Source: Kiritimatiellia bacterium (GTDB taxonomy: Bacteria; Verrucomicrobiota; Kiritimatiellia; RFP12; UBA1067). From it: 32,529 nucleotides of DNA. Each line of letters opens with the position of its first letter. Position 1 is the stretch's first letter. Below are positions 532-15,615 of the stretch, piece by piece. Location: contig JAFSTA010000223.1 in the NCBI GenBank assembly GCA_017450695.1, positions 1 to 32,529 on the forward strand, given 5' to 3'. A program made the translations under genes and the position numbers. Below the pieces are notes generated by a model. It saw only the letters and a program-made list of their open reading frames with translations. It was not told the origin of the DNA and searched no databases.

Positions 532-560
532 TTTCTTCTGGGGGAAGTGTTTGGTAAAAT
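532..560 (+). promoter_or_regulatory. Weak candidate promoter for the BREX leader
   Basis: TTTCTT (532-537), a 17-bp spacer and TAAAAT (555-560) precede the structured leader. The -10 is preceded by TTGG, as in other promoters here, but the -35 is poor. It is proposed mainly because it lies just upstream of the folded region and the BREX genes. Confidence 0.3.
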
Positions 561-571
561 CGGCGCGTCAA

Positions 572-848
572 CTTCGGTTGGAAGACCGGGGATGGCCAAG
601 CTTCGGACGGATGCGGGGGAGAAATCCCGCCGAGGTTCGGAGTGGGTATGCCGTTTCTTACGAAATACCGCTACATTTCAAAAGGCACATAACGGCATAG
701 GGTAATTATGCCCTTCATGGGGCGTATTCTGCCCTGTGCATTGTGTCTGCCCGTAGCGGGGCTTCGTAAGAGTGCATGGGGAGCAACAGGAGCGCCCTCT
801 TTTCATGCACGGAACTTCTCCGACGGTAACCGAGGGTGCCAAGGAGAA
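572..848 (+). ncRNA. Candidate structured 5' leader RNA upstream of the BREX operon
   Basis: Consecutive helices can be drawn by eye. 572-578 pairs with 585-591. 601-608 pairs with 635-642, enclosing 613-617 with 626-630. TCTTACGAA (656-664) pairs with TTCGTAAGA (763-771), and inside it CCGCTAC (668-674) pairs with GTAGCGG (753-759) across a 3x3 internal loop. GTGCATG (772-778) pairs with CATGCAC (804-810). TTCTCC (816-821) pairs with GGAGAA (843-848), which is the Shine-Dalgarno of the ORF at 856. ATGCCGTT (648-655) could also pair with AACGGCAT (691-698), giving a pseudoknot or an alternative fold. I do not recognise a known RNA family. The arrangement resembles a cis-regulator with a ribosome-site-blocking hairpin, but a ribozyme remnant or a decayed mobile element is also possible. 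No folding program was run. Confidence 0.5.
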
Positions 849-855
849 CGAAAGC

Positions 856-1047
856 ATGACAATGGCTGGTTCCGTGCCAAATCCGCCATCGGCAGGAAAG
901 AAAAGCCGGACCGAATCGCTCGTTCGGCGTTTACACATGAATCCCGCTCGCGAAACGTGTTGGGACAAGCACAATCCAATCCGGCCGGAATATACGTTCA
1001 TCGGGATCCGTGGCATGGAAAGTTCCTCATTCCCTTTCGCGCTGTGA
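856..1047 (+). CDS. Possible small protein (63 aa) of unknown function
   Basis: This is a short frame starting MTMAGSVPNPPSAGKK and ending at TGA 1045-1047. It is preceded by a full AAGGAG (841-846) nine bases before the ATG. That is the best ribosome binding site in the area, much better than the one before brxA 34 bp downstream. The product is basic and proline-rich at its N-terminus. It has no membrane segment, and I recognise no motif in it. It could be a leader peptide coupling translation to brxA, or a chance frame. It lies just after the hairpin that would block its ribosome site. Confidence 0.3.
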   Translation: MTMAGSVPNPPSAGKKSRTESLVRRLHMNPARETCWDKHNPIRPEYTFIGIRGMESSSFPFAL

Positions 1048-1081: not shown

Positions 1082-1732
1082 ATGAGAGCGAACAAGCAAA
1101 ATAGCCCCTACAGTGCGGCGTTTACGGGATGCGGCTTCATGCTGGATGAAACCGTGGCGCTTCTGCCCATTCTGCAATCGCCCGACGCGGATGCGCTTCT
1201 CAAGGCGGAGGTCGAGGGCAACAATCTACTCCAGCTCGGCAAGGCCAAGACGCGTTCCCGCATGGTCGCGGAGTTCAGGCGCCGCTATCACGCATTGCCG
1301 CCCTCGTTCTGGAACTGGTTTCTCTCGCTTGATCGCGCGGGGCAGACCGTGGCGCTCTACTACTGCCTTATGCGCACCTACCTCATGCTGAAAGAGGTAC
1401 ACCTCAATCTCTTCCTCCCGCGCCTGAAATCGGCAAACCCCGTCGTCGCCAAGTCCGACGTGGATCGCCACATCCTCAAGATCGCCGCCTCGGACGCATT
1501 CGTCGAAAGCTGGTCGGACGCGACGAAGGCGAAAATCGCCGGAACTTGCCTTTCCTTCCTTCGTGCCGTGGGGATGCTCGAAGCGGCCACAGGCGCTCTC
1601 CATCCTGTCCCCGTTCCCGATGCGGTAGCCACCCGCTTCATTTCGCGTGGCGAAGCCTGGTACATGGAGGCACTTGGAATGCCGCTTTACGAGGTCAGCA
1701 GACTCTACCAGAGCGAGGTGTCAAAACCATGA
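1082..1732 (+). CDS. brxA: BREX protein BrxA (DUF1819 family)
   Basis: The product is 216 aa, about the usual size for BrxA, the small first protein of type I BREX phage-defence operons. It contains a tract rich in aromatic and basic residues (MVAEFRRRYHALPPSFWNWF, about residues 61-80) followed by helices, as in the DUF1819 family. Family members are known as small helical DNA-binding proteins. The ATG at 1082 (MRANKQNSPY) is chosen over an in-frame upstream ATG at 1010 because the family's start region resembles the shorter form. Neither start has a good Shine-Dalgarno. The stop overlaps the brxB start as ATGA (1729-1732), so the two are translationally coupled. The call rests on sequence character plus the canonical brxA-brxB-brxC-pglX order. 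Confidence 0.85.
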   Translation: MRANKQNSPYSAAFTGCGFMLDETVALLPILQSPDADALLKAEVEGNNLLQLGKAKTRSRMVAEFRRRYHALPPSFWNWFLSLDRAGQTVALYYCLMRTYLMLKEVHLNLFLPRLKSANPVVAKSDVDRHILKIAASDAFVESWSDATKAKIAGTCLSFLRAVGMLEAATGALHPVPVPDAVATRFISRGEAWYMEALGMPLYEVSRLYQSEVSKP

Positions 1733-2376
1733 TCCAAGAACTCTACAGCAAGCTGAACAACAACGAATTCCTCGCCCCTGGCGGAATCGCCTATAACTTC
1801 TATATCGTTCCCTACGAGGTACGAAAGGAAGCGGAGACGCTGGCCGACATCGATCATATCGTCGAGGATCTCAGGAGACCCACGGATTTTATCGACGTCC
1901 TCTCGCTCGACCTTTTCTCCGTGTTTCTGGAATACCTCGACGCAGACAAGTTCGGCAATCAAAGCAGATTGGCGTTTCTGCTGGATTCGGACGCCCGTGC
2001 GGAATCCGCGTATCTCCACACGAATGTGACCAAGTCGCTCTTTGAGAAAGCACACAGCGAGCAGTTCCGTGATTACGTGCATGCCAAGATCGTGGCGCAT
2101 TTTTCTCAGACAGATCCCGTACACAAACGCCCCTACGTGTTCTTGTGGGGTTTTGGCGCGATGTTCCCCTATCTGCGAGCCAACGAGTTTTTGATCGCTT
2201 ACGAGGCCGTGAATGACGCCAACCTCTACAAAGTGATCCTGTTCTATCCCGGAACGGTGCGCGACGGGCAGTTCTCGTTGTTTGGAGTCCTGAACGACCA
2301 GCACGCCTACCGTGCGCAGATACTGGAAATCGAATCCGAATCGAAAGGAACGAACCATCATGGAAAAACTGGGTGA
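1729..2376 (+). CDS. brxB: BREX protein BrxB (DUF1788 family)
   Basis: The product is 215 aa, starting MIQELYSKLNNNEF and ending ...QILEIESESKGTNHHGKTG. The length, the segment KRPYVFLWGFGAMFPYLRA (about residues 135-153) and the late FYPG motif fit DUF1788/BrxB, a required but biochemically poorly defined BREX component. The start codon overlaps the brxA stop (ATGA), and the 3' end overlaps brxC by 17 bp. Expression is therefore tightly linked to both neighbours. An in-frame ATG at 1546 lies inside brxA and is rejected. Confidence 0.88.
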   Translation: MIQELYSKLNNNEFLAPGGIAYNFYIVPYEVRKEAETLADIDHIVEDLRRPTDFIDVLSLDLFSVFLEYLDADKFGNQSRLAFLLDSDARAESAYLHTNVTKSLFEKAHSEQFRDYVHAKIVAHFSQTDPVHKRPYVFLWGFGAMFPYLRANEFLIAYEAVNDANLYKVILFYPGTVRDGQFSLFGVLNDQHAYRAQILEIESESKGTNHHGKTG

Positions 2377-5300
2377 ACTCTATTCCCGAAACGTGGAGGC
2401 ATCTCTCAATGCCGTCGTCTCCACGGGTGATACAACCGACCAGACAGTCCAGACAGAAATCAACGAGTACGTGTTTACCGACGATATCGTAAACGGCCTG
2501 TACAGGACACTGGAAGCGATAAAGAACGGTTCCACGAGCCACAACGGTGTATGGGTGAGCGGCTATTTCGGATCGGGCAAGTCCCATTTCCTCAAATATG
2601 TCAGCTACTGTCTCCGCAACATGGGCAATGCGATCTCCCGTATGACGGATGCCGTAAAGGAATCCCTTGCGGGTGACAATTTGGGTGTCGTGCCATTGGA
2701 GTGGGCGGGTGTGGCGGATTGGCTGGTGCAACATGCGGCATCCGTCAAGACGATCCTGTTCAACATGGGAGAATCAGGCGATTTCAACGCAAAGGAGGGC
2801 GAAGAGTTCCTGACCGTGTTCTGGAGGAAGTTCAACGAAATGCGCGGGTACAGCGGAGTCAATCTGCCGCTTGCCTATTTCTTGGAGCGTCCGCTCGATA
2901 AGGTCGGCAAGTTCGATGACTTCAAGGCGAAGATCGCGGAGAAGGGATATAACTGGGAGAATGATCGCAGCGATCTGGCGGGGATGAGTCTGGATACCGT
3001 CCTGATGGTAGCGAAGGACACCATGCCGGAACTGACGGTCGATGCCGTCCGGGAAAACATCATCCACAATCGTGTGGTGCTTTCCGTCTCGAATTTTATG
3101 GAGGATGTGAACGAATGGATCCTCGCGCAGGATCCGGATTGCCGTCTTGTCTTCTGTGTGGACGAGATTAGCCAATACATCAACAACCGCGTACAGCTGT
3201 TGCTGCAACTTCAGGAAATCGTGACCGCGTTCCACAACAAGTGTGGCGAGAAGGTCTGGCTCGTCTGCACGGCCCAGCAGGACTTGTCAGAAATCACCTC
3301 CGCGAGTGGGATCGGCGCGGCGAGCGCAGGGTACGGCAAGATTATGGGACGTTTCCCGATCATGGTACAGCTCTCGGCGTCATCTACCGAATTCATCACG
3401 CGCAAGCGCGTGTTGGCGAAAACGGCATCCGCCGCGATCGAACTGGGGCATTTCTACGACGAACAGAAAGACAAAATCAATCATTCCCAGTATGTGTTTC
3501 CGGCCGCTTATCCCGTCTATGCCGACCGTGATGACTTCATCGCCACCTATCCGTTCCTAGGCTGCCATTTCCGGCTCATGGGACAGGTGCTGCGCGCATT
3601 TCGCGACCGGAACTTCGTTGTCCAGAATGTTAAGGACAATGCGCGAAGCGTTCTGACTCTTACCCTTGATGTCGCAAAGGTAACCAGGAACTGCCAGATC
3701 GGAAAGTTCATCGCGTTCGACGAGTTTTTCAGCTGGAATCTCAAGACGGGACTCACGGCTCGCGCCAATTCCGTGATTCAGAACGCCCGGGAGTTGATCA
3801 AACAACGTGAGAACCCGGCATTCGCCGAGCGTGTTTTGAATGTGCTCTTCATGATCTGTCACCTTGACTATCAGGACGCGCAGACGTTCCCTGCGACAAT
3901 CGACAACTTAACTTCGCTGCTGATGACCGATCTCTCGACTTCACGAAAGACACTACGGGAACAGATCGAGGCGGAGGTGAGTTGGCTATGCGAGAAAAGC
4001 GTTCTGATGCGCGAGACCACCAAGGCCGGAACAGATCACTTCAAGTTCTACTCCAAGACTGAATCGGAGATTGATTGCCAGATCAAGGGCATTACGCCCG
4101 GACTTGGCGATCTCGCCTCGATATGGGAGAACCTGATATCCGAACGACTCGGAAGCGCGCTCAAGCCGAAGGTGACTTTCCACGCGACCAAGGTGTCCGT
4201 GGGCATGGACATCCTGGGGCGGCATCTCTTGAGCGGCAATGCGGACGTGAACATCGATCTGCGCATCAATTCGGGAGGCATGTCGCTGGGACAGTTCAGG
4301 CTCGGCAATCACGACACGACACTTGCTTTCTTCGTGAACGATCTGTGCAACGCCGACACGAAATTCCGTGACGCGCTCGATTCCTACTGCAGGTTCGATC
4401 TGTTCAGCAAGCACAATGCGCCCAACAGCCCCGAGGAAAAAGCGGCGTTCGAGGTGTTTCGTGACCGTGCGAAGAGACTCCGTTCAGACCGCCTGATTCC
4501 GGGCATGGAGAAGTTCCTGCTGGAAGCGCCGATCATCAGCGGACAAAATGACATTTCAACCTCGCCGACATCAAATCCCGCCAAGCGGTTCGAGGAGGCG
4601 CTTCAGAAACATCTTGAAATCCTCTATCCCAAGGCGCAGGCGGCTGAAAACCTTCCGCATACAGCCGTGACTCTTTCCGCCGACATTACGGGATGGCATG
4701 CGCCGCTTCCCGGCACTTCGCTTGCCGGTGCGGAGCGGATCGTCGAGGGCTATTTGAGCGGACTTTCCTCGCCGTACCCCATTGCCAGTGTGGTGGATTA
4801 CTTTCAGAAACGCCCCTACGGCTGGGACGAATATGCGACGCTTGCCGTCCTGAACCGTCTCGTGGTTTCCGAACATCGCCAATTCATCTACAATGGTTCG
4901 CCCAATCCGTCCCGCGAGACGGTGGCCGCCAACCTCGCGAAGAATACCGCGAACTTTTCCATTGTCACAAAGGCGGCGATTCCCAAAGAGACAATCGACG
5001 CGTTCCTGGGCGCAATGCGAAAACTTTTCGGGCATACGACGCTCCACAATGCGAGTCAGCAGACAAGCGAACTCGTTGCGCAAGCCAAGGAATTTTTGTC
5101 CGGGAAGACGGAAAGAATTCACACGGTGAAGGGCAAGACCGGGCCGCGCCCGTTCATCGCGACACCGGATGCCGTCTGCACGAAGTTCAGCGCCTGGGAA
5201 CAAATCGTGGATGTTCCCGCCTTCTTCGCCCAGGTCACCGATGAGGCACCCTCGCTCACGGCTGACTGGGACACCACCAAACAGGCGATGGGATTCGTCG

Positions 5301-5878
5301 AAGGAACCCAATGGGACAAGTATCTCGACATCCTCCGCTTTGTATCGCAAAATACGGAGAACGCCCTATTTCTCTCCGGAGCCGACAAGGAAAAGTTCGG
5401 GTATCTTGTCGCCGCAAAGGACGATACGCAACCGTGGAATAGCCTTCCGAGCTGGATCCAGATCAAGAAACAGCTCGAAGCGGCTTTCGAGGAATGCCGT
5501 CAGGAAAAACGCGCCGCCATCGAGGAGGTTTACACGTTCGTGTTCAACGAACTGGCGGAGATTGCGGAAAGTCTCGGCGTGGCGGAATCTCCCGTAGCCT
5601 TTGGCGCGGAGACGATTGCCGAGAAACAGAAGAGCGACTCGCTCATGGCGCTTGAGAACGCGATCAATTCCGCCCAAGCCTTCAAGGATAGGAAAATGCG
5701 GGAGATTATCGCCGCCCAACCTTCTGCCCCCTCTGCAAAACACGTCAAGAGTGTGAAGCTCGCGGTTTCTCATGCGACGCCCCTGAAGAACGAGGCTGAA
5801 GTGGACGCCTATCTGCGTGCGCTGAAACGGAAGCTGATGGCTGAGATCGACGGCGGTTTCGCGATTGTCATTCAGTAA
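2360..5878 (+). CDS. brxC: BREX P-loop ATPase BrxC
   Basis: The product is a 1172-aa large P-loop protein, the usual size of type I BrxC. The Walker A motif GYFGSGKS is at residues 68-75 and a Walker B-like LVFCVDE is at about 263-269, with the acidic pair D268-E269. The rest is long and mostly helical, with no other recognised catalytic motif. BrxC is thought to power or assemble the BREX complex and is needed for defence. The start ATG at 2360 (MEKLGELYS) lies 17 bp inside brxB; a more upstream ATG at 2312 is unlikely. The gap to pglX is 29 bp and contains an AAGGGGG ribosome site. Confidence 0.93.
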   Translation: MEKLGELYSRNVEASLNAVVSTGDTTDQTVQTEINEYVFTDDIVNGLYRTLEAIKNGSTSHNGVWVSGYFGSGKSHFLKYVSYCLRNMGNAISRMTDAVKESLAGDNLGVVPLEWAGVADWLVQHAASVKTILFNMGESGDFNAKEGEEFLTVFWRKFNEMRGYSGVNLPLAYFLERPLDKVGKFDDFKAKIAEKGYNWENDRSDLAGMSLDTVLMVAKDTMPELTVDAVRENIIHNRVVLSVSNFMEDVNEWILAQDPDCRLVFCVDEISQYINNRVQLLLQLQEIVTAFHNKCGEKVWLVCTAQQDLSEITSASGIGAASAGYGKIMGRFPIMVQLSASSTEFITRKRVLAKTASAAIELGHFYDEQKDKINHSQYVFPAAYPVYADRDDFIATYPFLGCHFRLMGQVLRAFRDRNFVVQNVKDNARSVLTLTLDVAKVTRNCQIGKFIAFDEFFSWNLKTGLTARANSVIQNARELIKQRENPAFAERVLNVLFMICHLDYQDAQTFPATIDNLTSLLMTDLSTSRKTLREQIEAEVSWLCEKSVLMRETTKAGTDHFKFYSKTESEIDCQIKGITPGLGDLASIWENLISERLGSALKPKVTFHATKVSVGMDILGRHLLSGNADVNIDLRINSGGMSLGQFRLGNHDTTLAFFVNDLCNADTKFRDALDSYCRFDLFSKHNAPNSPEEKAAFEVFRDRAKRLRSDRLIPGMEKFLLEAPIISGQNDISTSPTSNPAKRFEEALQKHLEILYPKAQAAENLPHTAVTLSADITGWHAPLPGTSLAGAERIVEGYLSGLSSPYPIASVVDYFQKRPYGWDEYATLAVLNRLVVSEHRQFIYNGSPNPSRETVAANLAKNTANFSIVTKAAIPKETIDAFLGAMRKLFGHTTLHNASQQTSELVAQAKEFLSGKTERIHTVKGKTGPRPFIATPDAVCTKFSAWEQIVDVPAFFAQVTDEAPSLTADWDTTKQAMGFVEGTQWDKYLDILRFVSQNTENALFLSGADKEKFGYLVAAKDDTQPWNSLPSWIQIKKQLEAAFEECRQEKRAAIEEVYTFVFNELAEIAESLGVAESPVAFGAETIAEKQKSDSLMALENAINSAQAFKDRKMREIIAAQPSAPSAKHVKSVKLAVSHATPLKNEAEVDAYLRALKRKLMAEIDGGFAIVIQ

Positions 5879-5907
5879 GTCGTGGTGAATGGCCAAGGGG
5901 GATTCGG

Positions 5908-8900
5908 ATGAACCTGACGAAAATCGAGAACTTTGCGAAAAACATCCGACGTAGTCTGATGGAGGGTGTGGATGCCGCCCTCACCCTGCTGGGGTTTACG
6001 GATCAAATGCCGGAAGCGCCTATGGCCGTGCAGGGCGGTTGGACCTATCGTGGCAAGGTGGTTGATGATGTGGAGTTTGGCGCGCGGTGGCAGCGGCTCA
6101 AGGATTTCATCGCACACGAAGAGGACGGGCGCAAGGCCGCCGTGGAACGCGCGGCGTACACCTGGTTCAATCGGCTTGTCGCGATTCGGATTCTCGCCAA
6201 GTGCGGTCTTGTGCAGCCTCAGCTCGAATGGGCGGACCAGGCGGCGCATATCCCCGTGATTGTCCATCGGATGCGCACGGGCGGCTGGAAACCCAACCTG
6301 ACGCCCGGCGAGGATGCCGCCTTGGCGCGTATCCGCCACGATCCGACCCAAACGCGCGAGCAGTTCGCAATCCTCGCGGGCGCGTTCTGCCGCGAAACGC
6401 CCATCCTCCAGGCGTCGTTTGGCGAGATCGATGACTGGACGATGCTCCTTGTCCCGACCAATCTGCTCGCGGAGGGCGGGCTTGTCGATTGCCTCAACGA
6501 CGCCACGCTCCTTTCCGATGAGGACTACCGACAGGACGAGCTGATCGGCTGGCTCTACCAGTACTACATCGCCGAGCGCAAGGCCGAGGTGTACGACGGG
6601 TTCAAAAAGAAAAAGAAGGCTGGTGTCGCCGAGATCCCTGCCGCCACGCAGATATTCACCCCGGACTGGATTGTGAAGTATCTCGTGGAGAATACGTTGG
6701 ATTCCGCCGATCCCACCTCAACATCCTTTCTCGATCCCTGCTGCGGATCGGGGCACATTCTGCTGGAGGGATTCCGCCATCTCCTTGCGGCATACGATGA
6801 GCTGGGCTATTCGAAGCGTGTCGCCGTCGAGAGAATTTTCGCCAATAACCTGACGGGGATCGACATCGACCCGCGCGCGCGGCAGCTCTCCACATTCGCG
6901 CTGTTGCTCGCGGCGGCAAAGGAGGACGATTCGTTTGCCGATGCGCACGCGCTCCCGCGTGTGTTTGATACGGCGGGGGCTGTTATCGGCGATTCTATCG
7001 CCGATAACGGGACTCTCGAAAACTACATCGCCAAGACGCTCGGCACATCGAAAGAGAAGGAGATAGGGGAAATCCGTGCCGCCCTTTCGCTTCTCCGCGA
7101 CAGGGGAGAGAACATCGGATCGCTACTCAAGCTCGACCTCGCGCCCGAGACGCGGGCGCTCATCAAAACACGGCTCCCGGATGTGGAGGACAAGGTGCTG
7201 CGACGTGCGCTGGATCGGTTGCTTGTGCTTACGGGCGAATACGATGCGCTCGTCACCAATCCGCCGTATCTCGGCGCAGGGAACCTCAACGCCACCCTGA
7301 AGGAATATCTGGAAAAACACTACAAGGACGGTAAGGGCGACCTCTTCTCGGCATTCATTCTGCGGCTCATCGAAATGTGCAAGACCGGTGGGCGCGTGGG
7401 CATGATCACGATGCAGAGCTGGATGTTTCTCTCTTCTTTTGAAGCGATGCGAAAATGTCTCTTGGAAAAATGCACCATCCTCTCGATGGCTCATCTGGGG
7501 GCGCACGCTTTCGATTCTCTCGGTGGCGAAGTGACACAGACCACTGCCTTTGTACTGGCCAATGAGTTTTACCCTGGTTTTGCGGGAACATACTACCGCC
7601 TTGTGGATGGAAAAAGTGAAAAGGAAAAGAAGGAGTTGTTTTCCAAAATAGAACCATTCCATGTCTCAGCTGACAATTTCAAAAAGATTCCAGGCACTCC
7701 CTTCGCCTATTGGGTGAGCGAGAAGATGCTCAAGGCGTTTGAGGAGGGGAAGCCACTGTCAGAATATGCTTTGCCGCGGCAAGGGATAGCAACTGGCGAT
7801 AATAATCGGTTTTTGAGGTTGTGGTATGAAGTAAGTCTTTCAAGGCTTGGTTTTGACGGACGGCAAGGTGAACATACAACAAAGAAGTGGTATCCTTGCA
7901 GAAAGGGAGGAAGTTATCGGAGGTGGTATGGGAACTATGAGATTGTCCTTGATTGGGAAAATGATGGAAAGAGACTGAAGGAGTTTTCTGGATCCGTAAT
8001 AAGAAATCCCAATTATCATTTTCTTGAGGGAATAACATGGACATCAATTGGGCATACTTTCTCAATGCGGTACGCGCCAGCTGGTTTTCTCTTTGAAAGT
8101 AAGGGTGCGACATGTGTACCAGTAGGGGATTTCTCACTAAAGTTTTCGCTGGCACTTTGCAATACCGTTGTGGCAGATAAGTTCTTGGAACTACTTGCTC
8201 CTACATTAGATTTCCATGAGGGACCAGTTGGCAATCTCCCGACGCTTTTTGTACCAAGGATTCAAAGACAAGTGGAATCACATATTGATGAATTGATTTC
8301 CCTCTCCCGCTCCGATTGGGACGAATATGAGACATCTTGGGATTTTAAGGTGAATCCGCTTGTGCAGGAGGGGTTACGGAAGGGCGCGGGCGGAATGTCG
8401 CTTGAAGATGCGTGGCGGTCGGTCTTTGCCCGGCGCATGGAATGGGCGGCACGCATGAAAGAGCTGGAAGAGGAAAACAACCGACTCTTCATCGAAGCGT
8501 ACGGGCTGGAGGGCGAGCTGTCGCCGACGGTGGCGTGGAAGGATGTGTCGATCACGGGGAATCCGTATTATCGGTATAAGATCGACGGGGAGGGGTTCCG
8601 TTCGGCGCAATATTATTGCGCCGAACAGGACTGCGCCGAACAGGACATAGGGCCGGCCATGCCGCAGATGCCGCCCGAATTGGAGGCGCGGGCGCGGGCG
8701 GATGCGGTGCGCGAGTTGCTATCCTACGGAATGGGCGTTCTGATGGGGCGGTATTCGCTGGAGAAGGAAGGGCCGATCCTTGCCTCGCAGGGCGAAACCA
8801 TACAAGACTACAGGGAACGGATACACGGGGCGGGGAGAATCAGTCCGGATGAAGACGGCGTCATCCCCGCCATCGCGCTGGACGGAGACTTTTTCCAAGA

Positions 8901-9396
8901 CAATCTCCTGTACCGTATGCGCGAGTTCCTGTCGGCGGCATTCGGCAGCGACAGGATCAATGTCAACCTCAACTTCATCGAGGCGGCGCTGGACTGCAAG
9001 ATCGACAAATACCTGACGGACAAGTTCTTCGATGACCATGCGAAGATGTACCGCAAGCGGCCGATCTACTGGCTCTTCGAATCACCGAAAGGCTATTTTT
9101 GCGCATTCGCCTATATGCACCGCATGACGGGGGCGACGGCGGGACTGATCCGCAACAAGTACTTGCTGCCGTACATCGCGCATTTGGAGAAGTGCCATGT
9201 CTCCGAGGCAGCGAAGGGCGCGGCCATGACGAATGCGGAACGCAAGCGCGTGAAAGAAATTGAAAAAGCGATTGCGGACTGCAAGAAGTACGACCTTGCC
9301 CTCCATGACCTTGCGGAAAAGTCCATCGCCATCGACCTCGATGACGGCGTGGCCGTGAACCGGGAGAAATACAAATCTGTCTTGGCGAAAATCTAG
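5908..9396 (+). CDS. pglX: BREX adenine-specific DNA methyltransferase PglX
   Basis: The product is a 1162-aa N6-adenine methyltransferase that marks host DNA in BREX systems. The AdoMet-binding motif I is DPCCGSGH (D276-H283) and the catalytic motif IV is NPPY (451-454); both are intact. The N-terminal 250 residues are the helical region typical of PglX. Residues from about 545 to 810, where target recognition is expected, are encoded by DNA of much lower GC than the flanks. The coding sequence contains two palindromic insertions that keep the frame: one encoding IGDSIADN at 6982-7008, and a hairpin plus a 15-bp tandem duplication at 8600-8646. No frameshift is seen, so the gene should be functional. 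The start follows brxC by 29 bp. Confidence 0.95.
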   Translation: MNLTKIENFAKNIRRSLMEGVDAALTLLGFTDQMPEAPMAVQGGWTYRGKVVDDVEFGARWQRLKDFIAHEEDGRKAAVERAAYTWFNRLVAIRILAKCGLVQPQLEWADQAAHIPVIVHRMRTGGWKPNLTPGEDAALARIRHDPTQTREQFAILAGAFCRETPILQASFGEIDDWTMLLVPTNLLAEGGLVDCLNDATLLSDEDYRQDELIGWLYQYYIAERKAEVYDGFKKKKKAGVAEIPAATQIFTPDWIVKYLVENTLDSADPTSTSFLDPCCGSGHILLEGFRHLLAAYDELGYSKRVAVERIFANNLTGIDIDPRARQLSTFALLLAAAKEDDSFADAHALPRVFDTAGAVIGDSIADNGTLENYIAKTLGTSKEKEIGEIRAALSLLRDRGENIGSLLKLDLAPETRALIKTRLPDVEDKVLRRALDRLLVLTGEYDALVTNPPYLGAGNLNATLKEYLEKHYKDGKGDLFSAFILRLIEMCKTGGRVGMITMQSWMFLSSFEAMRKCLLEKCTILSMAHLGAHAFDSLGGEVTQTTAFVLANEFYPGFAGTYYRLVDGKSEKEKKELFSKIEPFHVSADNFKKIPGTPFAYWVSEKMLKAFEEGKPLSEYALPRQGIATGDNNRFLRLWYEVSLSRLGFDGRQGEHTTKKWYPCRKGGSYRRWYGNYEIVLDWENDGKRLKEFSGSVIRNPNYHFLEGITWTSIGHTFSMRYAPAGFLFESKGATCVPVGDFSLKFSLALCNTVVADKFLELLAPTLDFHEGPVGNLPTLFVPRIQRQVESHIDELISLSRSDWDEYETSWDFKVNPLVQEGLRKGAGGMSLEDAWRSVFARRMEWAARMKELEEENNRLFIEAYGLEGELSPTVAWKDVSITGNPYYRYKIDGEGFRSAQYYCAEQDCAEQDIGPAMPQMPPELEARARADAVRELLSYGMGVLMGRYSLEKEGPILASQGETIQDYRERIHGAGRISPDEDGVIPAIALDGDFFQDNLLYRMREFLSAAFGSDRINVNLNFIEAALDCKIDKYLTDKFFDDHAKMYRKRPIYWLFESPKGYFCAFAYMHRMTGATAGLIRNKYLLPYIAHLEKCHVSEAAKGAAMTNAERKRVKEIEKAIADCKKYDLALHDLAEKSIAIDLDDGVAVNREKYKSVLAKI
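6982..7008. repeat. REP-like palindrome inside pglX
   Basis: GTTATCGGCGAT (6982-6993) and ATCGCCGATAAC (6997-7008) are perfect 12-bp arms around a 3-base loop (TCT). The element encodes VIGDSIADN in frame. The same core (ATCGGCGAT-N3-ATCGCCGAT) occurs in the transposase gene at 9823-9843, with an arm-swapped version at 9573-9591. Confidence 0.8.
7540..8340 (+). other. Low-GC block in the putative target-recognition region of pglX
   Basis: By hand count, sampled 60-base lines between 7801 and 8220 are about 35-42% GC. The line at 8401-8460 is about 62%, and the rest of the gene looks similar. Methyltransferase motifs I and IV lie outside the block. This fits replacement of the specificity segment by recombination with a foreign allele. 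Confidence 0.6.
8600..8646. repeat. Hairpin plus 15-bp tandem duplication inside pglX
   Basis: GTTCGGCGCAA (8600-8610) and TTGCGCCGAAC (8616-8626) are perfect 11-bp arms around TATTA. The right arm starts a 15-bp unit (TGCGCCGAACAGGAC) present twice, at 8617-8631 and 8632-8646, and encoding CAEQD twice. The unit length is a multiple of three, so copy-number change would not break the frame. Confidence 0.8.
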
Positions 9397-9405
9397 AAGA
9401 CATGG

Positions 9406-9419
9406 TAAACTATAGTTTA
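9406..9419. promoter_or_regulatory. AT-rich 14-bp perfect palindrome before the transposase gene
   Basis: TAAACTATAGTTTA reads the same on both strands. It lies 10-23 bp after the pglX stop and 17 bp before the transposase ATG. It is strikingly AT-rich for this region. TTGGCG (9382-9387), 18 bp and TAAACT could form an internal promoter, which would make the palindrome a possible operator. It could also mark an insertion junction. Confidence 0.35.
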
Positions 9420-9436
9420 ACAAATGGGAGAGAACG

Positions 9437-10603
9437 ATGACTGATTATCCTCTGAAAGAAACAATCCATTCCATGCTTCGGCGGTGTGTCGGCTGGGACT
9501 ACACGAAGCCCTGCATCTACATGATCACCGTCGTGCTGGCTGACCGGCGCGGCAAGGCGCTGGGTACCGTTCTCGCCGATAGGATCGGCGATCGCGGGCT
9601 TCCCGCCGCCGCCCATTGCGAACCGACCGACCTGGGGCGGGCGGTGGAAGGATGCTGGGAGGCAATCCCGCGCTTCTATCCGCAGGTGCAGATTCTCGGC
9701 AAACAGGTGATGCCGGACCATTTCCACGGAATCCTGTGGGTGAAAGAGCCGCTGGACTGCCATTTGGGACAGGTGGTCAAAGGCTTCAAGCTGGGTTGCA
9801 ACAAGGCGGCGCGGGCTCTATCATCGGCGATGGCATCGCCGATAACAGGGCTCGGCAAGGGGCTATTCGCGGAGGGCTTTCAGGACACCATCCTTTTCAG
9901 CAGAGGGCAACTCGAAAAGATGATCACCTACATCCAGGCGAACCCGTTACGCCTTGCCGTCAAGCGCGCGATGCCGGAGTTGTTCACGATGGTACGAGAT
10001 GTCCGGATCCCGGTGATCCTGTCGCCGACGGCAGAACCCGCCGACCTGCATTTCTCCGCCATCGGCAACCTGGGGCTGCTGGACCGACCGTTGGTACAGG
10101 TGCAATGCTCACGGCGACACCTCAACTACAGGCGCGTTCCCAAGCCCGGCGGCGGGTTGAAGATCGCGCGGGATGCACAAGGCGAGCCCATCGTTGAATT
10201 CGCCACGAGCGAATACGAGAACCGGCGCGACGAACTGCTGGCGGCAGGCCGTCACGGCGCGGCACTCATTTCACCCTGCATCTCCGACGGGGAGCGGCAG
10301 ATCGCCCGCGAGGCGTTGAAGGAGGGACTGCCGCTCGTCACCATGCAGAACAAGGGTTTCTCGAAACTGCAAAAGCCAAGCGGCCGGTATTTCGACGCCT
10401 GTGCCGCCGGGCGGCTTCTCATGATTGCCCCTGCGGCTTGGCCGCACATGGTCGGTGAAAAGCGGATGACCCGTGACGATGCCCTCGCCATGAATCGCCT
10501 CTGCCAATGGTTGGCGGGGGAGGGGGCCGCCACGATTGACTACAAGGGGCACACACCGGTCAATATCGACCGCATGGCGCTCGACGCCACAAGGAGTCCG
10601 TGA
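9437..10603 (+). CDS. Y1 (HUH) transposase, RAYT-like, with an extra C-terminal domain, inside the BREX operon
   Basis: The product is 388 aa. The N-terminal half is a Y1/IS200-type single-strand transposase domain. The metal-binding HUH signature is H95-F-H97 in VMPDHFHGILWV, and the likely catalytic tyrosine is Y165 in TYIQANP. This matches the REP-associated tyrosine transposase (RAYT) group. Residues about 260-365 form a second domain (LISPCISDGERQIAREAL; later KPSGRYFDACAAGRLLMIAP) that looks Rossmann-like and reminiscent of DprA/SMF. That reading is only tentative. The ATG follows GGGAGAG by about nine bases. The stop overlaps the pglZ start as TGATG. No IS ends or target duplications are seen, so it looks like a resident operon gene and not a fresh insertion. 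Two REP-like palindromes lie within it. Confidence 0.85.
   Translation: MTDYPLKETIHSMLRRCVGWDYTKPCIYMITVVLADRRGKALGTVLADRIGDRGLPAAAHCEPTDLGRAVEGCWEAIPRFYPQVQILGKQVMPDHFHGILWVKEPLDCHLGQVVKGFKLGCNKAARALSSAMASPITGLGKGLFAEGFQDTILFSRGQLEKMITYIQANPLRLAVKRAMPELFTMVRDVRIPVILSPTAEPADLHFSAIGNLGLLDRPLVQVQCSRRHLNYRRVPKPGGGLKIARDAQGEPIVEFATSEYENRRDELLAAGRHGAALISPCISDGERQIAREALKEGLPLVTMQNKGFSKLQKPSGRYFDACAAGRLLMIAPAAWPHMVGEKRMTRDDALAMNRLCQWLAGEGAATIDYKGHTPVNIDRMALDATRSP
9573..9591. repeat. REP-like palindrome inside the transposase gene, copy 1
   Basis: TCGCCGAT (9573-9580) and ATCGGCGA (9584-9591) are 8-bp arms with loop AGG. The arms are the same words as in the palindrome at 6982-7008 but in swapped order. 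In frame it encodes part of LADRIGDRG. Confidence 0.7.
9823..9843. repeat. REP-like palindrome inside the transposase gene, copy 2
   Basis: ATCGGCGAT (9823-9831) and ATCGCCGAT (9835-9843) are 9-bp arms with loop GGC. It is followed by AACAGGGC; read on the other strand, the element and its left flank (CCTGTTATCGGCGAT) nearly match the pglX copy at 6982-7008. It is translated as part of LSSAMASPITG. Confidence 0.75.
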
Positions 10604-13167
10604 TGAAAGCGGAAGAAATCAAAAAGCATTTCGAAACAAGCGGAAGAAACGTCGCGTTTCTATTCGCGGAAGATATCTTCGTGCGTGACGAGATCATGCG
10701 GTTCGACCTGGGAGCCGATACAGAAATCGTGGAATACAAAGGCGATGCGTTCGTGCTCAAGCACAAGATACGCACGTTACCGAAAGAGAAGCGCCTTGTG
10801 GTACTGGTATCGGGACCGTCGCCGCTCGCAACGGGAGAAGACACGGGGTCGTTTCCGCTTCTCGGCGAACTTATGGCGAACGGAGAGTGCAAGGCGCAGA
10901 CGCCGGTCTCGTTCATGGCGGCGAACGGAATGAACACGGGCGATGCCGCACTTGCGGGAATCGTGTCGCGCCATCTTGCAGAGATGACGACGGGAAAAGG
11001 CGATGCGGTGTTCGGCGGGCAGTTCGGGACCGGGTTCACGGCGGAGAAGGCGGCGCAGGGACTGGTGAGCATTCATCTCGGCGCGAAGGAGATGTGGGAG
11101 TGGCGGGAGATATTTGCGAACCTGTTCCTCTGCGATGCCGAAGAGGTAAAGAATCCGAAAAACGGATCGAAGGCGGCGTTCCTGTTCAAATCAGGATTCG
11201 GCGACGTGTTGAAAGAAGTCCAGGGGAAATGCCGATGGTATTTTGGCGCGGAGGGGCAGACGCCGAAAGGCGGAGAAATCGGAAAGAGGGGCTTTTTCTC
11301 TACGGCGGTGGAGCGGCTCGTGTACAATGCGGTGACGCGTCCCCTGCCGGTCGCTGCGGGCGATCCCTATACGACGCGGAAAGAGACGGATGCAGGGAGA
11401 CTGGATCGGATGGAAGGATTCCTGCGCTGGGCTTCAGAGAGCCTGCCGGAGCAGAAGCGGCGAAAGTTCTTCGGCGCGGTCGAGGCATTGTCGGCGCAAG
11501 TCAAGGGCAAGGGCATTGTTGCGGCATACGGCGCGACGGCAAGGTACGGGTTCTATTTCCAGCGGGTTTCGAAGGAGATTCTGCGCACATTGGCAGCGGA
11601 CGGATTCGGGGCTGATTCGGCGACGAAGGCAAAGGCGGCGGAGCGCGTGGCGAGCTCGGCGGTGGCCGATGGCGATACGGTGGCGCTCGCGCGCACGGAG
11701 GCGGCGATGGCCCGGTTCTATGTGGAGCGGGCGAAGATCGCCACGTTCGCGCGGAATACGCGGGAGGAGATGCTTTCCGCATACACGGGCGGATGGTGGC
11801 GCCTCGACAGGGAGTACAGGCTGGCGCTGGAGCACCTTGCCTCAATCGCGAATGACGAGTGCCGTGCTGTGGTGGAGAGGGCAAAGGAGAAGTTTGAGAC
11901 GGATGCCCAAGGGACATTCAACGAAATGAACCTTGCCTGGACAAACACGCTCAATGCGGCGGGTGGTGCCGTAGGCATAGAGGGGGTGTTGGCGCAAGAG
12001 GACTTCTACGAGAAGAAGAAAGACCCGTCGGTGAAGATGGCCGTGGTGGTGAGCGACGCCCTGCGGTACGAGGTGGCGCTGGAGGTGATGGACCGGCTGA
12101 ACGCGAACCGGGGGGCCGTCACGATGGAGGCGGGAATCGCGCATCTGCCGACCGAGACCCAGTACACGAAAGCGACATTGCTGCCGCACACTTCAATCGA
12201 ATTCCAGAGGGGCCAGGCGCTGCGGCTCGACGGCGGCAAACCGACGGTGACGACGGCCGACAAGCAGGGCATTCTTCAGGCGCACTGCACGGAGGGGGTG
12301 TGCGTGACGGCGAAAGATCTGAAGGGCAAGGCACAGACTGAGAAAAGAGCCATTTTCAAGAACAGGGTCGTCTATGTTTTCCACGACTCCATCGACCATA
12401 CCGGACACGGTGCGGCAACCGGACAAGAGATGGCCGGGGCGTGTCGCGAGGCTGTGGACGAGTTGGTCAAGCTGATACAGAACATCCAGAACACATGCAA
12501 TGTCAACCATGTGTGGCTGGTGGCAGACCATGGCTTTCTGCTCTGCGACCGCGACATCCCGGACGGCGAAAAGATTCCGGTGGAGGAGAATGAAGACGCC
12601 AAGGAGAAGACGACGCGCTACTACTTCACGGAGCGGGCGGATCCCATCCATGCCATCTTGAAGGTGGCGCTTCCGGATGGCGGATTCGTGGCGGTGCCGG
12701 CGGGGACGCGTCGCTTCAAGGCCAACGGAAGCTATACGTTCGTGCATGGCGGCGCGTCGCTACAGGAGATGGTCATCCCGGTCATGCATTCGCGGCTGCT
12801 CGGCACGGACGCGACGAGGAGCCGTGCGAAGGTGGGCGTGACGATACTCGGTACCAACCTGCGCGTACAGTCGAGTCGGATCAAGTTCGAGTTGTTGCAG
12901 AACGAGGCCGTTTCCGCGGAGATGCAGGAACGGACGGTGCTTTGCGCCCTGTATGCGGATTCCGAGATGGTCAGCAACGAAGTGAGGATCAAGCTCGACT
13001 CCACGAGTGCGTCGCTGGATGATCGGAAGAAGGTCGTCGAGCTTGTGCTGAACGGGGAGACGGCGGGCATCCTCACGCTCAAGGTCTTCGCGGATGGCGA
13101 TTCGTTAAACGCGCTTGACGAAAAGACCGTAACCAACGAAACCCTTATCCCTATGGACAACTGGTAA
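10603..13167 (+). CDS. pglZ: BREX alkaline-phosphatase-superfamily protein PglZ
   Basis: The product is 854 aa, the usual size for type I PglZ, a member of the alkaline phosphatase superfamily required for BREX. Metal-site motifs are visible: VVVSDALRYE (481-490) and LVADHGF (639-645), with VFHDSIDHTGHG between them. The first 400 residues are helical and charged, as expected for the N-terminal BREX-specific part. The ATG at 10603 has AAGGAG six bases upstream. The GTG at 10600 is in frame but too close to that site. The start overlaps the transposase stop (TGATG), so its translation probably depends on the transposase gene. It is followed after 15 bp by the brxL-type gene. Confidence 0.93.
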   Translation: MKAEEIKKHFETSGRNVAFLFAEDIFVRDEIMRFDLGADTEIVEYKGDAFVLKHKIRTLPKEKRLVVLVSGPSPLATGEDTGSFPLLGELMANGECKAQTPVSFMAANGMNTGDAALAGIVSRHLAEMTTGKGDAVFGGQFGTGFTAEKAAQGLVSIHLGAKEMWEWREIFANLFLCDAEEVKNPKNGSKAAFLFKSGFGDVLKEVQGKCRWYFGAEGQTPKGGEIGKRGFFSTAVERLVYNAVTRPLPVAAGDPYTTRKETDAGRLDRMEGFLRWASESLPEQKRRKFFGAVEALSAQVKGKGIVAAYGATARYGFYFQRVSKEILRTLAADGFGADSATKAKAAERVASSAVADGDTVALARTEAAMARFYVERAKIATFARNTREEMLSAYTGGWWRLDREYRLALEHLASIANDECRAVVERAKEKFETDAQGTFNEMNLAWTNTLNAAGGAVGIEGVLAQEDFYEKKKDPSVKMAVVVSDALRYEVALEVMDRLNANRGAVTMEAGIAHLPTETQYTKATLLPHTSIEFQRGQALRLDGGKPTVTTADKQGILQAHCTEGVCVTAKDLKGKAQTEKRAIFKNRVVYVFHDSIDHTGHGAATGQEMAGACREAVDELVKLIQNIQNTCNVNHVWLVADHGFLLCDRDIPDGEKIPVEENEDAKEKTTRYYFTERADPIHAILKVALPDGGFVAVPAGTRRFKANGSYTFVHGGASLQEMVIPVMHSRLLGTDATRSRAKVGVTILGTNLRVQSSRIKFELLQNEAVSAEMQERTVLCALYADSEMVSNEVRIKLDSTSASLDDRKKVVELVLNGETAGILTLKVFADGDSLNALDEKTVTNETLIPMDNW

Positions 13168-13182
13168 GACAGGAGAAGAAAG

Positions 13183-15615
13183 ATGACGGAGATAGACAAC
13201 GAAGTGCTGGAAGCGGACAAGAAACTCAATGTGAAGGTACTGGAGAGATTCGCGAAGTCCGTGGTGCGCAAAGACCTTGCCTTTCAGGTGAAGGGGAATC
13301 TGCCCGTGCCCACGTATGTGATCGAGTATCTGCTCGCGCAATTCTGTCAGTCAAGTGACGAACAGGAGATTGCCAAGGGCATGGAGGAGGTGAAGGAGAT
13401 CGTTCGCGAACGCTATTTCAACCGGGCGGACAACGAAATCATCAAAGGACGCATTCGGGAGAAGGGTTCGTATCTGATCATCGACAAGGTGAGCGCGTAT
13501 CTTGATGCAGGGGCGAACTGCTATCGGTGCAAGTTGGAAAATCTCGGGCTTGGCGGACTCAATATCCCGGATCAGGTCGTCCGGGCGAACGAGAAGCTGC
13601 TTTCAGGCACGGGGGTGTGGTCGCTCATCAAGATGAAATTCGATCCGGGCGACGATGCGGTTGATCGGTGGGTCATCGAAGAGTACAAGCCGATCCAGAT
13701 CGCCAACGTGGATGTGGGGGAATACAAGGCACACCGCAAGGAGTTCACGACAGATGAATGGATCGACTTCCTGATCCATTCGTCCGGGCTGAACCCGTGC
13801 GTCCTCAACCGGCGCGAGAAGCTGCTTGTCATCGCGAGGTTCTTGCCATACGTGGAGAACAACTTCAACTTTATGGAACTGGGGCCGAAAGGGACGGGAA
13901 AGAGCCATGTGTTCCAGGACTTCTCCCCTTATGGCGTACTGGTGAGCGGAGGCGACATGACAAGCGCCAGGCTGTTTGTGAAAGAGGGCAAGCAGGAGTC
14001 GCTGGGGCTTGTGGCATTTTGGGACAATGTCACCTGGGATGAATATGAACAACGGAAAGGAACGCGCATCAAAGACCCGTCCATTGTTGCGACAATGCAG
14101 AACTATCTTGCCAACAAGGCGTTCAACAGGGGTGGTGCGACGCATGTGGCATCGGCTTCCATGTCCTTCGTGGGCAACACGAAACATACCGTCGATTACA
14201 TGATGCGCCGGACGCATCTTTTTGAATCAATCCCCTCGGACTTCTTTGTCAACGGCGGCGCTTTCCTCGACCGCATCCATCTGTATAATCCCGGATGGGA
14301 GATTTCGCCGCTTAAGAAAAGCAGTTTCTCGGTGGGTTATGGCATGATCACGGACTATTTCGCGGCGATTCTCCATGCCATGCGCAACGAGGACCGCTCG
14401 GGGGAGATGGCGAAGTTTGCGAAGTTCAGCAGCACGTTAAGCGAACGCGACCACCTTGCCGTTCGCAAGACTTTCTCCGGCATGATGAAGCTGCTGTTTC
14501 CCGATGGCGCTTATACGACGGACGAGGCGTTTGAGATCATCGACTTCGCGGCGGAAGGACGCAAGCGGGTGAAGGAGCAGCTGTACAAGATCGACGAGAC
14601 CTTCAGGGCGGAGCCGGCGGTGTTCGAGTACACGATCCTGTCAAGCGGAGAGAAGCGGCAGATCAAGACGCTGGAAGAGATCGAGAACGTAGTGGCGGGT
14701 GACGAGTGCCCGGTGGCTAGCGGTGCGTGCCCGGTGGATCGTGACGGCAATCACGAACTAGCCACTGACCACTACCCGACGGCCACGAATTTTGGCCCGA
14801 AGCATGTTTATATCCAGACCAACCAGCGCGGTGTCTCGTACAAGTCGCTGTTCGGAGACTATCTGAGGGGCGCTCAGGAGATCGTCATCGTCGATCCCTA
14901 CATCCACAAACCGTACCAGATAGACAATCTCACCGACCTGTTGCAGCTGATCCTGGACTTGAACGCAGACTCAGAGGATCTGCGTGTAGAGTTGCACACG
15001 AGCGTGAACGAGGCCGATCCTGCGGGGCAGAACGAGGCGTTTGAATCGCTCAAGGAGGATTTGGCGCGTGAGGGTGTGGAGTTCGATTTCACCTACGACG
15101 CCACGCATGACAGGGCGATTCTGGTTGACGACAAGTGGGCGATCAACCTTGGACGCGGGTTGGACATCTTTGAATGGTTTCAACGATATTCGCTGAAGAA
15201 GACGTCACAGCGGATGCGCAAGTGCCGCGACTTCCAGATGACAATCGCGCCGATCCGGCCGACGGTCAGCGCGGATGAGCTAATCGCCGGCGTCAAGGCG
15301 GGGCAGGTCAAGTCCAATAGCACCGACGGCTATCTTGTGCTTGCGGGACAGTTCTACGATGAGATCGAGGCCGGCACGAAGACCGTCGAGTACCGTGATT
15401 TCACGAAGTACAACCTCAAGCGCACAATCGGCATCACAACGATCCGGTTCAATCGCGGCTACGGGCACCCCGGCCAGCCGCCCGCGCAGATGCGCTGGGA
15501 GGTGGAGAAGGTCGTGTTTCAGGATGCCGCCAACAACGAGTGCGATCCTATGACCGCGCCGGACGGTTTTGTCCCCGTGAGGATAGCGATCTATCTTGGG
15601 AAGCGAATCGGGTAA
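13183..15615 (+). CDS. brxL: BrxL-type AAA+ protein with MIT_C/PLD-like and ASCH domains replacing the Lon-like domain
   Basis: The product is 810 aa, longer than typical type I BrxL (about 680). Residues 1-500 match the BrxL AAA+ core: Walker A GPKGTGKS (234-241), Walker B-like LVAFWDN (276-282), and a sensor-like GNTKH further on. D281 is followed by N282 where a glutamate is usual. After GRKRVKEQLYKIDE and a short repeat-derived linker (about 508-535), the expected Lon-protease-like domain is absent. Instead about 540-690 resembles the MIT_C phospholipase-D-like fold (IVIVDPYIHKPYQ; HDRAILVDDKWAINLGRGLD). About 715-808 is an ASCH domain with the signature GxKxxExR (G731, K733, E736, R738). 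ASCH belongs to the PUA-like superfamily that also contains modified-base readers. AGGAG lies seven bases before the ATG. In other BREX systems BrxL is a DNA-binding AAA+ ring. The AAA+ and ASCH calls are firm; MIT_C is likely. Confidence 0.88.
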   Translation: MTEIDNEVLEADKKLNVKVLERFAKSVVRKDLAFQVKGNLPVPTYVIEYLLAQFCQSSDEQEIAKGMEEVKEIVRERYFNRADNEIIKGRIREKGSYLIIDKVSAYLDAGANCYRCKLENLGLGGLNIPDQVVRANEKLLSGTGVWSLIKMKFDPGDDAVDRWVIEEYKPIQIANVDVGEYKAHRKEFTTDEWIDFLIHSSGLNPCVLNRREKLLVIARFLPYVENNFNFMELGPKGTGKSHVFQDFSPYGVLVSGGDMTSARLFVKEGKQESLGLVAFWDNVTWDEYEQRKGTRIKDPSIVATMQNYLANKAFNRGGATHVASASMSFVGNTKHTVDYMMRRTHLFESIPSDFFVNGGAFLDRIHLYNPGWEISPLKKSSFSVGYGMITDYFAAILHAMRNEDRSGEMAKFAKFSSTLSERDHLAVRKTFSGMMKLLFPDGAYTTDEAFEIIDFAAEGRKRVKEQLYKIDETFRAEPAVFEYTILSSGEKRQIKTLEEIENVVAGDECPVASGACPVDRDGNHELATDHYPTATNFGPKHVYIQTNQRGVSYKSLFGDYLRGAQEIVIVDPYIHKPYQIDNLTDLLQLILDLNADSEDLRVELHTSVNEADPAGQNEAFESLKEDLAREGVEFDFTYDATHDRAILVDDKWAINLGRGLDIFEWFQRYSLKKTSQRMRKCRDFQMTIAPIRPTVSADELIAGVKAGQVKSNSTDGYLVLAGQFYDEIEAGTKTVEYRDFTKYNLKRTIGITTIRFNRGYGHPGQPPAQMRWEVEKVVFQDAANNECDPMTAPDGFVPVRIAIYLGKRIG
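14707..14765 (+). repeat. Intergenic-type repeat embedded in the brxL linker
   Basis: TGCCCGGTGG occurs at 14707-14716 and 14728-14737. GTGGCTAG (14713-14720) is inverted at 14758-14765 (CTAGCCAC). The style (GGTGGCTAGCGG, CTAGCCACTGACCACTACCCG) resembles the non-coding repeats at 18602-18634 and 21960-22015. It encodes a low-complexity linker between the AAA+ and PLD-like domains without breaking the frame. Confidence 0.55.

Follow-up and report, generated by a model that had tools for sequence, protein, structure and literature searches.

The 5′ leader of the BREX operon in the window, by which we mean the whole 32,529-nt stretch of Kiritimatiellia DNA that was analysed, is one copy of a new and widespread RNA family which is absent from Rfam; of this we are certain. 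The core of the element comprises a long arm (P1 to P5) locked by a pseudoknot (PK1), followed by a hairpin (P6). We consider it probable (roughly 60%) that the element is a cis-acting RNA switch, in which competition of P5 with a comparably strong alternative helix would set the expression of the downstream gene. The leader is not specific to BREX and most often precedes restriction-modification genes, those for DNA methyltransferases included. The original prediction, a new structured leader controlling the BREX operon, is substantially correct and drawn too narrowly.

The control of costly and self-toxic defence systems in bacteria is a question to which the answers so far have mostly been protein regulators. 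With one RNA leader shared by unrelated defence systems, this control becomes directly testable, as the question of what flips the leader. In addition, the leader can be used as a marker and points to DUF4417 proteins, the protein at locus L184 and BspA-type repeat proteins as candidates for functions in defence or phage contact. Furthermore, the size of this new RNA family, its two pseudoknots and its exceptionally strong covariation make it a good target for structure determination. For BREX itself, the DNA-binding WYL protein BrxR has been described as a regulator (PMC9122589). According to the main text of that paper, in which the words “leader”, “untranslated” and “riboswitch” are absent, transcription of the Acinetobacter BREX operon starts 23 bp upstream of brxR, and a long leader would therefore be lacking there. 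The leader would share with BrxR a control point at the start of a BREX operon; they differ in that BrxR is a protein and that its operon, as described, has no long leader (PMC9122589).

Folding of positions 560-860 resulted in a minimum free energy (MFE) of -136.8 kcal/mol, compared with -104.9 +/- 5.4 kcal/mol for 100 dinucleotide shuffles (z -5.95), none of which reached an equal value. This agrees with the earlier view that such a run of helices is unlikely by chance. The 9-bp and 7-bp parts of the long-range stem proposed there are found as P1 and P2 in the sequence and in the MFE fold, and the 8-bp complementarity proposed as an alternative pairing can be read from the sequence as PK1 (Table 1). 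Between its own promoter and the start codon, the leader measures about 290 nt. The 5′ domain, which varies among copies, consists of a hairpin (572-579/584-591), a stem (600-608/635-643) and an inner hairpin (613-618/625-630), and contains GGGGGAGAAAUCCCG, present in many copies as GGGAGAAAUCC. P6 carries one strand of PK2 in its loop and a U-rich tract, near 800-803, in its 3′ arm. An RNAalifold consensus was not found 3′ of P6, and a small hairpin there (P7, GAGACGGUCUC type) is a reading by eye.

Table 1. Features of the leader and of the BREX operon in the window
Feature	Position	Strand	Basis or remark
Extended -10 promoter box TGGTAAAAT	552..560	+	1 mismatch to TGNTATAAT
5′ domain	567..645	+	MFE fold, upstream sequences of other copies, alignment with second own-genome copy
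PK1 pseudoknot (648-655/691-698)	648..698	+	Swap test, paired cells
P1 (656-664/763-771)	656..771	+	96.1% of cells paired (88 distinct copies); two-sided changes at 7/8 modelled pairs
P2 (668-674/753-759)	668..759	+	99.4% of cells paired; two-sided changes at 7/7 pairs
P3 (~683-689/742-748)	683..748	+	91.2% paired; two-sided changes at 9/9 modelled pairs
P4 (~696-702/732-738)	696..738	+	MFE fold of the window copy; model helix 4, 95.1% paired
P5 hairpin (707-713/720-726)	707..726	+	93.2% paired, 12 modelled pairs
PK2 (719-725 and 727-731 with 787-798, 12 pairs)	719..798	+	Swap test
P6 hairpin (772-783/797-810)	772..810	+	Model helix 7, 96.3% paired
Possible Shine-Dalgarno-hiding hairpin (UUCUCC 816-821/GGAGAA 843-848)	816..848	+	Sequence; weak family-wide support
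63-codon ORF	856..1047	+	Start codon after the Shine-Dalgarno sequence of the leader; no Pfam match
brxA, first recognisable BREX gene	1082..1732	+	Pfam BrxA 2.4e-25 on ORF 1010-1732
brxB, brxC, pglX, ORF 9437-10603, pglZ, brxL	1732..15615	+	Rest of the BREX operon

For the search of relatives, a covariance model (R1) was built from seven well-aligned relatives with the window copy left out, and a second one (R2) was built from 97 matches (88 distinct), its training alignment including the window copy. R1 recovered the window copy at 646-812 with 88.3 bits (E 2.6e-17 in the 5-Mb genome of the window), and the sole match of R2 in the window was the leader (98.7 bits, the copy being among the 97 used in training). 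In the genome of the window, R1 yielded 24 matches at E<=1, 13 of these at E<=1.7e-8, and R2 yielded 35 matches at E<=0.01, including a few on the strand opposite to a true copy. Of 96 family genomes, 69 contain R1 matches at E<=0.01, as do 24 of 29 among the better assemblies; phylum-wide, 72 of 387 genomes have matches at E<=1e-4. By BLASTN, matches were detected in 13 of 94 related genomes, together with a second own-genome copy (G000:C106) that has 82% identity and precedes an unrelated gene, which is MzaC-like with a Z1 domain. The core was confirmed at ten loci, not counting the window copy and the duplicate loci of L002; seven of these ten supplied the training set of R1. A pattern search of named genomes gave 49 stretches, mainly from rumen and gut assemblies, titled mostly Kiritimatiellae, Lentisphaerae, Verrucomicrobia or uncultured bacterium; one stretch titled Bacillota and one titled Bacteroidales may be binning errors. 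As a small control, 50 kb of E. coli K-12 searched with R2 gave 0 matches at E<=10.

The earlier statement that no known family could be recognised holds for Rfam, with 0 matches in the element at gathering and permissive thresholds in the window and 16 relatives. In detail, Rfam 15 at the gathering threshold assigned 0 families to the window, and at E<=5 positions 400-1200 gave nothing in the core and one lncRNA match (15.2 bits) outside it. Ten relatives showed nothing in the element and two weak microRNA matches outside it, and six further loci had 0 matches. The family is not named in the literature searched, a scope that excludes subscription papers and supplements. A scan for tRNA and tmRNA in the window detected none.

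The conserved helices are supported by compensatory changes. Among the 88 distinct copies, 94.4% of cells are standard pairs and two-sided changes occur at 51 of 54 pairs; P1 and P2, the helix for which covariation had been proposed as a check, covary strongly. The covariation score of P1-P6 is 0.542 for these copies versus 0.217 for shuffles and <0.1 for a slid partner strand, and 0.774 versus 0.267 (shuffles) for 41 more diverse copies, both alignments being fitted to the covariance model, which favours the model. The first seven-copy alignment, made from sequence only, already shows the covariation pattern. Copy counts given here are not independent because the copies share descent.

For PK1, the own pairing in 39 diverse copies has -8.3 kcal/mol versus -5.0 kcal/mol with swapped partners, and 0 of 5000 permutations were as good. 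Its cells are paired in 92.8%, with compensatory types present. Two shuffle controls were weak, and in a column control on a less diverse alignment 41 of 500 shuffles matched the number of two-sided pairs. We take the swap test on the diverse set as decisive; it supports PK1 as a real pairing kept by compensatory changes, and of the two options named in the original prediction, competition or a pseudoknot, it backs the latter.

A further long-range pairing (PK2) is formed between the P6 loop and the 3′ strand of P5; like the extended -10 box and the additional own-genome copies, it is absent from the original prediction. In 41 diverse copies it has -16.2 kcal/mol versus -10.9 kcal/mol with swapped and -7.4 kcal/mol with shuffled loops, 0 of 2000 permutations being as good; in the column control on the less diverse alignment, 205 of 500 shuffles matched the number of two-sided pairs. 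Again the swap test on the diverse set is regarded as decisive, and supports that PK2 has been kept by compensatory change. The pairing is preserved despite wholly changed sequence or shifted register in L137, L142, L148, L167 and L181, and in the 41-copy set it is weak or missing in L038, L041 and L139, the match of L139 being cut short.

Since PK2 takes the 3′ strand of P5, the two helices are mutually exclusive. Their mean energies in the 41 copies are -16.0 (P5) and -16.2 kcal/mol (PK2), with pseudoknot entropy and the remaining fold left out, and PK2 is the stronger one in 22 of them. In the window copy, PK2 has -17.4 kcal/mol versus -11.8 kcal/mol for P5, pseudoknot costs not counted. 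Where the last position of PK2 is C, its partner in the P6 loop is G in 13 of 14 copies, and in 12 of 14 the P5 partner is A, a mismatch, several of the copies being close relatives. Behind the PK2 strand lies a U-rich tract whose longest U run is at least 5 in 65 of 88 distinct copies. At P6 and the U tract, scanning of the window for terminators detected none; the tract need not be a terminator because P6, with its 3′ arm beyond the U tract, is itself conserved.

The position of the element is that of a leader. The box TGNTATAAT with <=1 mismatch is located upstream of 51 of 75 copies, whereas after shuffling of the upstream regions it precedes 2.5 copies on average and 8 at most. The 75 are those whose upstream sequence was long enough, the divergent own-genome copies L033-L040 and L089 and antisense matches being excluded. 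For the window copy, the predicted 5′ end of the RNA is at about 567. A same-strand ORF of at least 150 codons begins <=160 nt from the core in 72 of 83 copies and on the other side in 10 of 77, and the median distance from core to ORF start is 43.5 nt. Judged by these sequence signals, the element lies between a promoter signal and a same-strand start codon, which supports the proposed structured 5′ leader RNA of the downstream gene and makes action in cis on this gene likely. Its size, double pseudoknot and copy number are reminiscent of catalytic or RNP RNAs and could suggest an RNA that is processed or acts in trans, as a ribozyme or guide-like RNA, and is merely co-located with defence genes. 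However, the element continues at its 3′ end into the ribosome-binding site and the start codon, and Rfam has no matching catalytic or guide family; we consider this explanation very improbable.

The suggestion that a final hairpin hides the AAGGAG of the next ORF (841-846) stands in part. The pairing sequences UUCUCC/GGAGAA are identical in the window, L002 and L004, and L005 has the compensatory AUCUUCC/GGAAGAU; on the other hand, the hairpin is not in the MFE structure of 560-860. Across 71 copies, pairing between the region 3′ of P6 and the region before the start codon has -16.9 versus -15.8 for swapped partners (1 of 2000), a small family-wide effect that shared base composition could produce. 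Hiding of the Shine-Dalgarno sequence throughout the family is thus a possibility, less well supported than the core.

Of the 88 distinct copies, 85 are followed by an ORF of at least 60 codons, two of these ORFs lying behind antisense matches. The downstream genes were grouped by BLASTP, and representatives were typed; other members were assigned by BLASTP link alone. Restriction-modification or other defence genes account for 56 of the 85, a raw count without a background rate of defence genes. The most frequent class is the EcoRI-type methylase (27/85), and further classes are N6/N4 (type III-like) methylases (5), type II methylases (4), DUF4417 proteins (4), HsdM (3), type ISP/IIG enzymes (3) and, with two each, SacI-type endonucleases, D12 methylases, Eco57I-type methylases, MzaC-like proteins and SNF2 helicases like DrmD or HmaA. 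ResIII, GajB-like UvrD, MmeI-like and BREX genes occur once each. Eight of the 85 encode BspA-type repeat proteins, which are not defence genes. The window's own genome has three additional copies, detected only with R2 or with lower R1 scores, and these lead into type I, type IIG and type III genes. In the reverse search of 96 genomes, the RNA is directly upstream of 23 of 30 EcoRI-methylase loci, counted at most once per genome and including a few that also served to build R1. The leader does head the BREX operon of the window, as predicted, but as one member of a multi-copy family in front of various defence genes, and only two of six brxA loci in the 96 family genomes carry it. These are the window and L181, a locus in another genus with the same fold and quite different sequence (28.5 bits); the remaining four are from genomes without any R1 match. 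In more distant genomes the fold persists and the genes are mixed; a restriction gene again occurs, along with genes for secreted and membrane proteins and sigma factors.

Several observations concern these genes. DUF4417 proteins recur behind the leader (L031, L012, L064, L089) and may be a defence or phage-related family; in L109, the contig of L064, a second leader copy lies about 2 kb away before a type ISP gene. Proteins without a family match follow the leader in two genera (L184/L039 and L133), the L184 protein having 0 matches in NCBIfam or PADLOC. BspA-type leucine-rich repeat and similar secreted proteins are found at L023, L047, L053, L057, L075, L088, L092 and L121. At the BREX locus L181 the leader runs straight into brxA, versus the intervening 63-codon ORF in the window, where a brxA start at 1082 is suggested by the match to the L181 orthologue. 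Between pglX and pglZ, ORF 9437-10603 (388 aa) has no match in Pfam or PADLOC.

From the structure, both pseudoknots, the promoter signal, the position and the gene association as observed, we infer transcription, switching, a signal, a level of control and a direction of effect. P5 and PK2 are exclusive, both covary and have equal calculated strength, and so the RNA appears to be built for either of two states, the 3′ strand of P5 pairing either with the P5 5′ strand or with the P6 loop. A shared signal, which may be a ligand, a protein or the transcription rate, would tip this balance during RNA synthesis, and the resulting state would decide the expression level of the downstream gene. The control point could be the U-rich tract after the PK2 strand, through pausing or termination, or the ribosome-binding site just 3′ of P6. 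With this leader shared by many different defence genes, the whole immune repertoire would be set by one signal. That a single signal acts through about 25-30 homologous leaders per genome and sets BREX, type I, II, IIG, III and ISP restriction-modification, MZA-like and Hma-like systems together would make the leader a hitherto undescribed class of RNA switch coordinating immunity across an entire bacterial lineage; it is a tentative extension of the model, which we would not yet favour. The proportion of BspA-type genes given above and the secreted and membrane proteins common in more distant genomes speak against the switch.

Alternatively, the leader could be a constitutive structure without sensing, which protects the mRNA, helps weak ribosome-binding sites or, in the manner of put or EAR elements, binds RNA polymerase and promotes its read-through of long foreign operons. 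Its occurrence before long operons and many kinds of genes would fit, as would the facts that no one protein family accounts for the RNA and that many copies are without a clear Shine-Dalgarno sequence. Two conserved exclusive helices of matched strength are, however, unexpected in a static element, and we regard a constitutive leader as rather unlikely.

The proposed switch resembles riboswitches and orphan candidates in being a 5′ leader with its own promoter, a covarying core with pseudoknots and alternative helices near the start codon, present in many copies per genome before a functionally related gene set. It differs in that it has no Rfam match or known ligand and that the genes belong to anti-phage defence and not to metabolism or transport. 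Attenuators and T-box leaders (RF00230) use two mutually exclusive helices, one of which is followed by a U-rich tract. The new leader likewise has exclusive helices (P5/PK2) and a helix strand followed by a U run, whereas its PK2 strands are far apart, P6 encloses the U tract and Rfam gives no match. The put and EAR elements are processive antitermination leader RNAs of long operons; the new RNA also leads long operons and differs in that it lacks an Rfam match and that polymerase binding is unsupported here.

A last explanation is that of a DNA-level recombination site or mobile module (attC-like or MITE-like), in which the folded strand is recognised and the RNA is incidental. There are many copies per genome, and near-identical cores precede unrelated genes, namely L103 (Eco57I-type) and L090 (D12) with 96% and L083 (EcoRI-type) and L095 (Eco57I-type) with 98% identity; the leader is therefore an exchangeable module that has moved between genes. 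Furthermore, L016 (G054, 1501-1580) repeats the 5′ module of the leader of L004 without the core. This module runs into a gene read by eye as a restriction subunit, and reflects a recombination event or an assembly error. Against a mobile module, the copies have a promoter at a nearly fixed place just 5′ and a gene start just 3′, and an exact-pattern search of viral contigs found 0 copies. A plasmid collection queried with the window copy gave 0 matches. In the window's own genome the element is dispersed across many contigs, every copy heading a gene, and cassette arrays are lacking; an integron attC-type site was rejected for this reason. Seventeen of these copies have pairwise identities of 0.29-0.80 (median 0.46), which indicates that they are old, compared with a true adjoining repeat at 82-91%; not being near-identical, they were also rejected as a recently spread MITE or REP. 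We consider a DNA-level element improbable.

The adjoining repeat just mentioned is an unrelated dispersed sequence of about 176 bp just upstream of the leader (60-236). It is palindromic, with arms at 99-127/144-172, and has about 40 full or partial copies in the genome. At L125 (G049:C15, 854-1665), two leader copies are divergently oriented about 500 nt apart.
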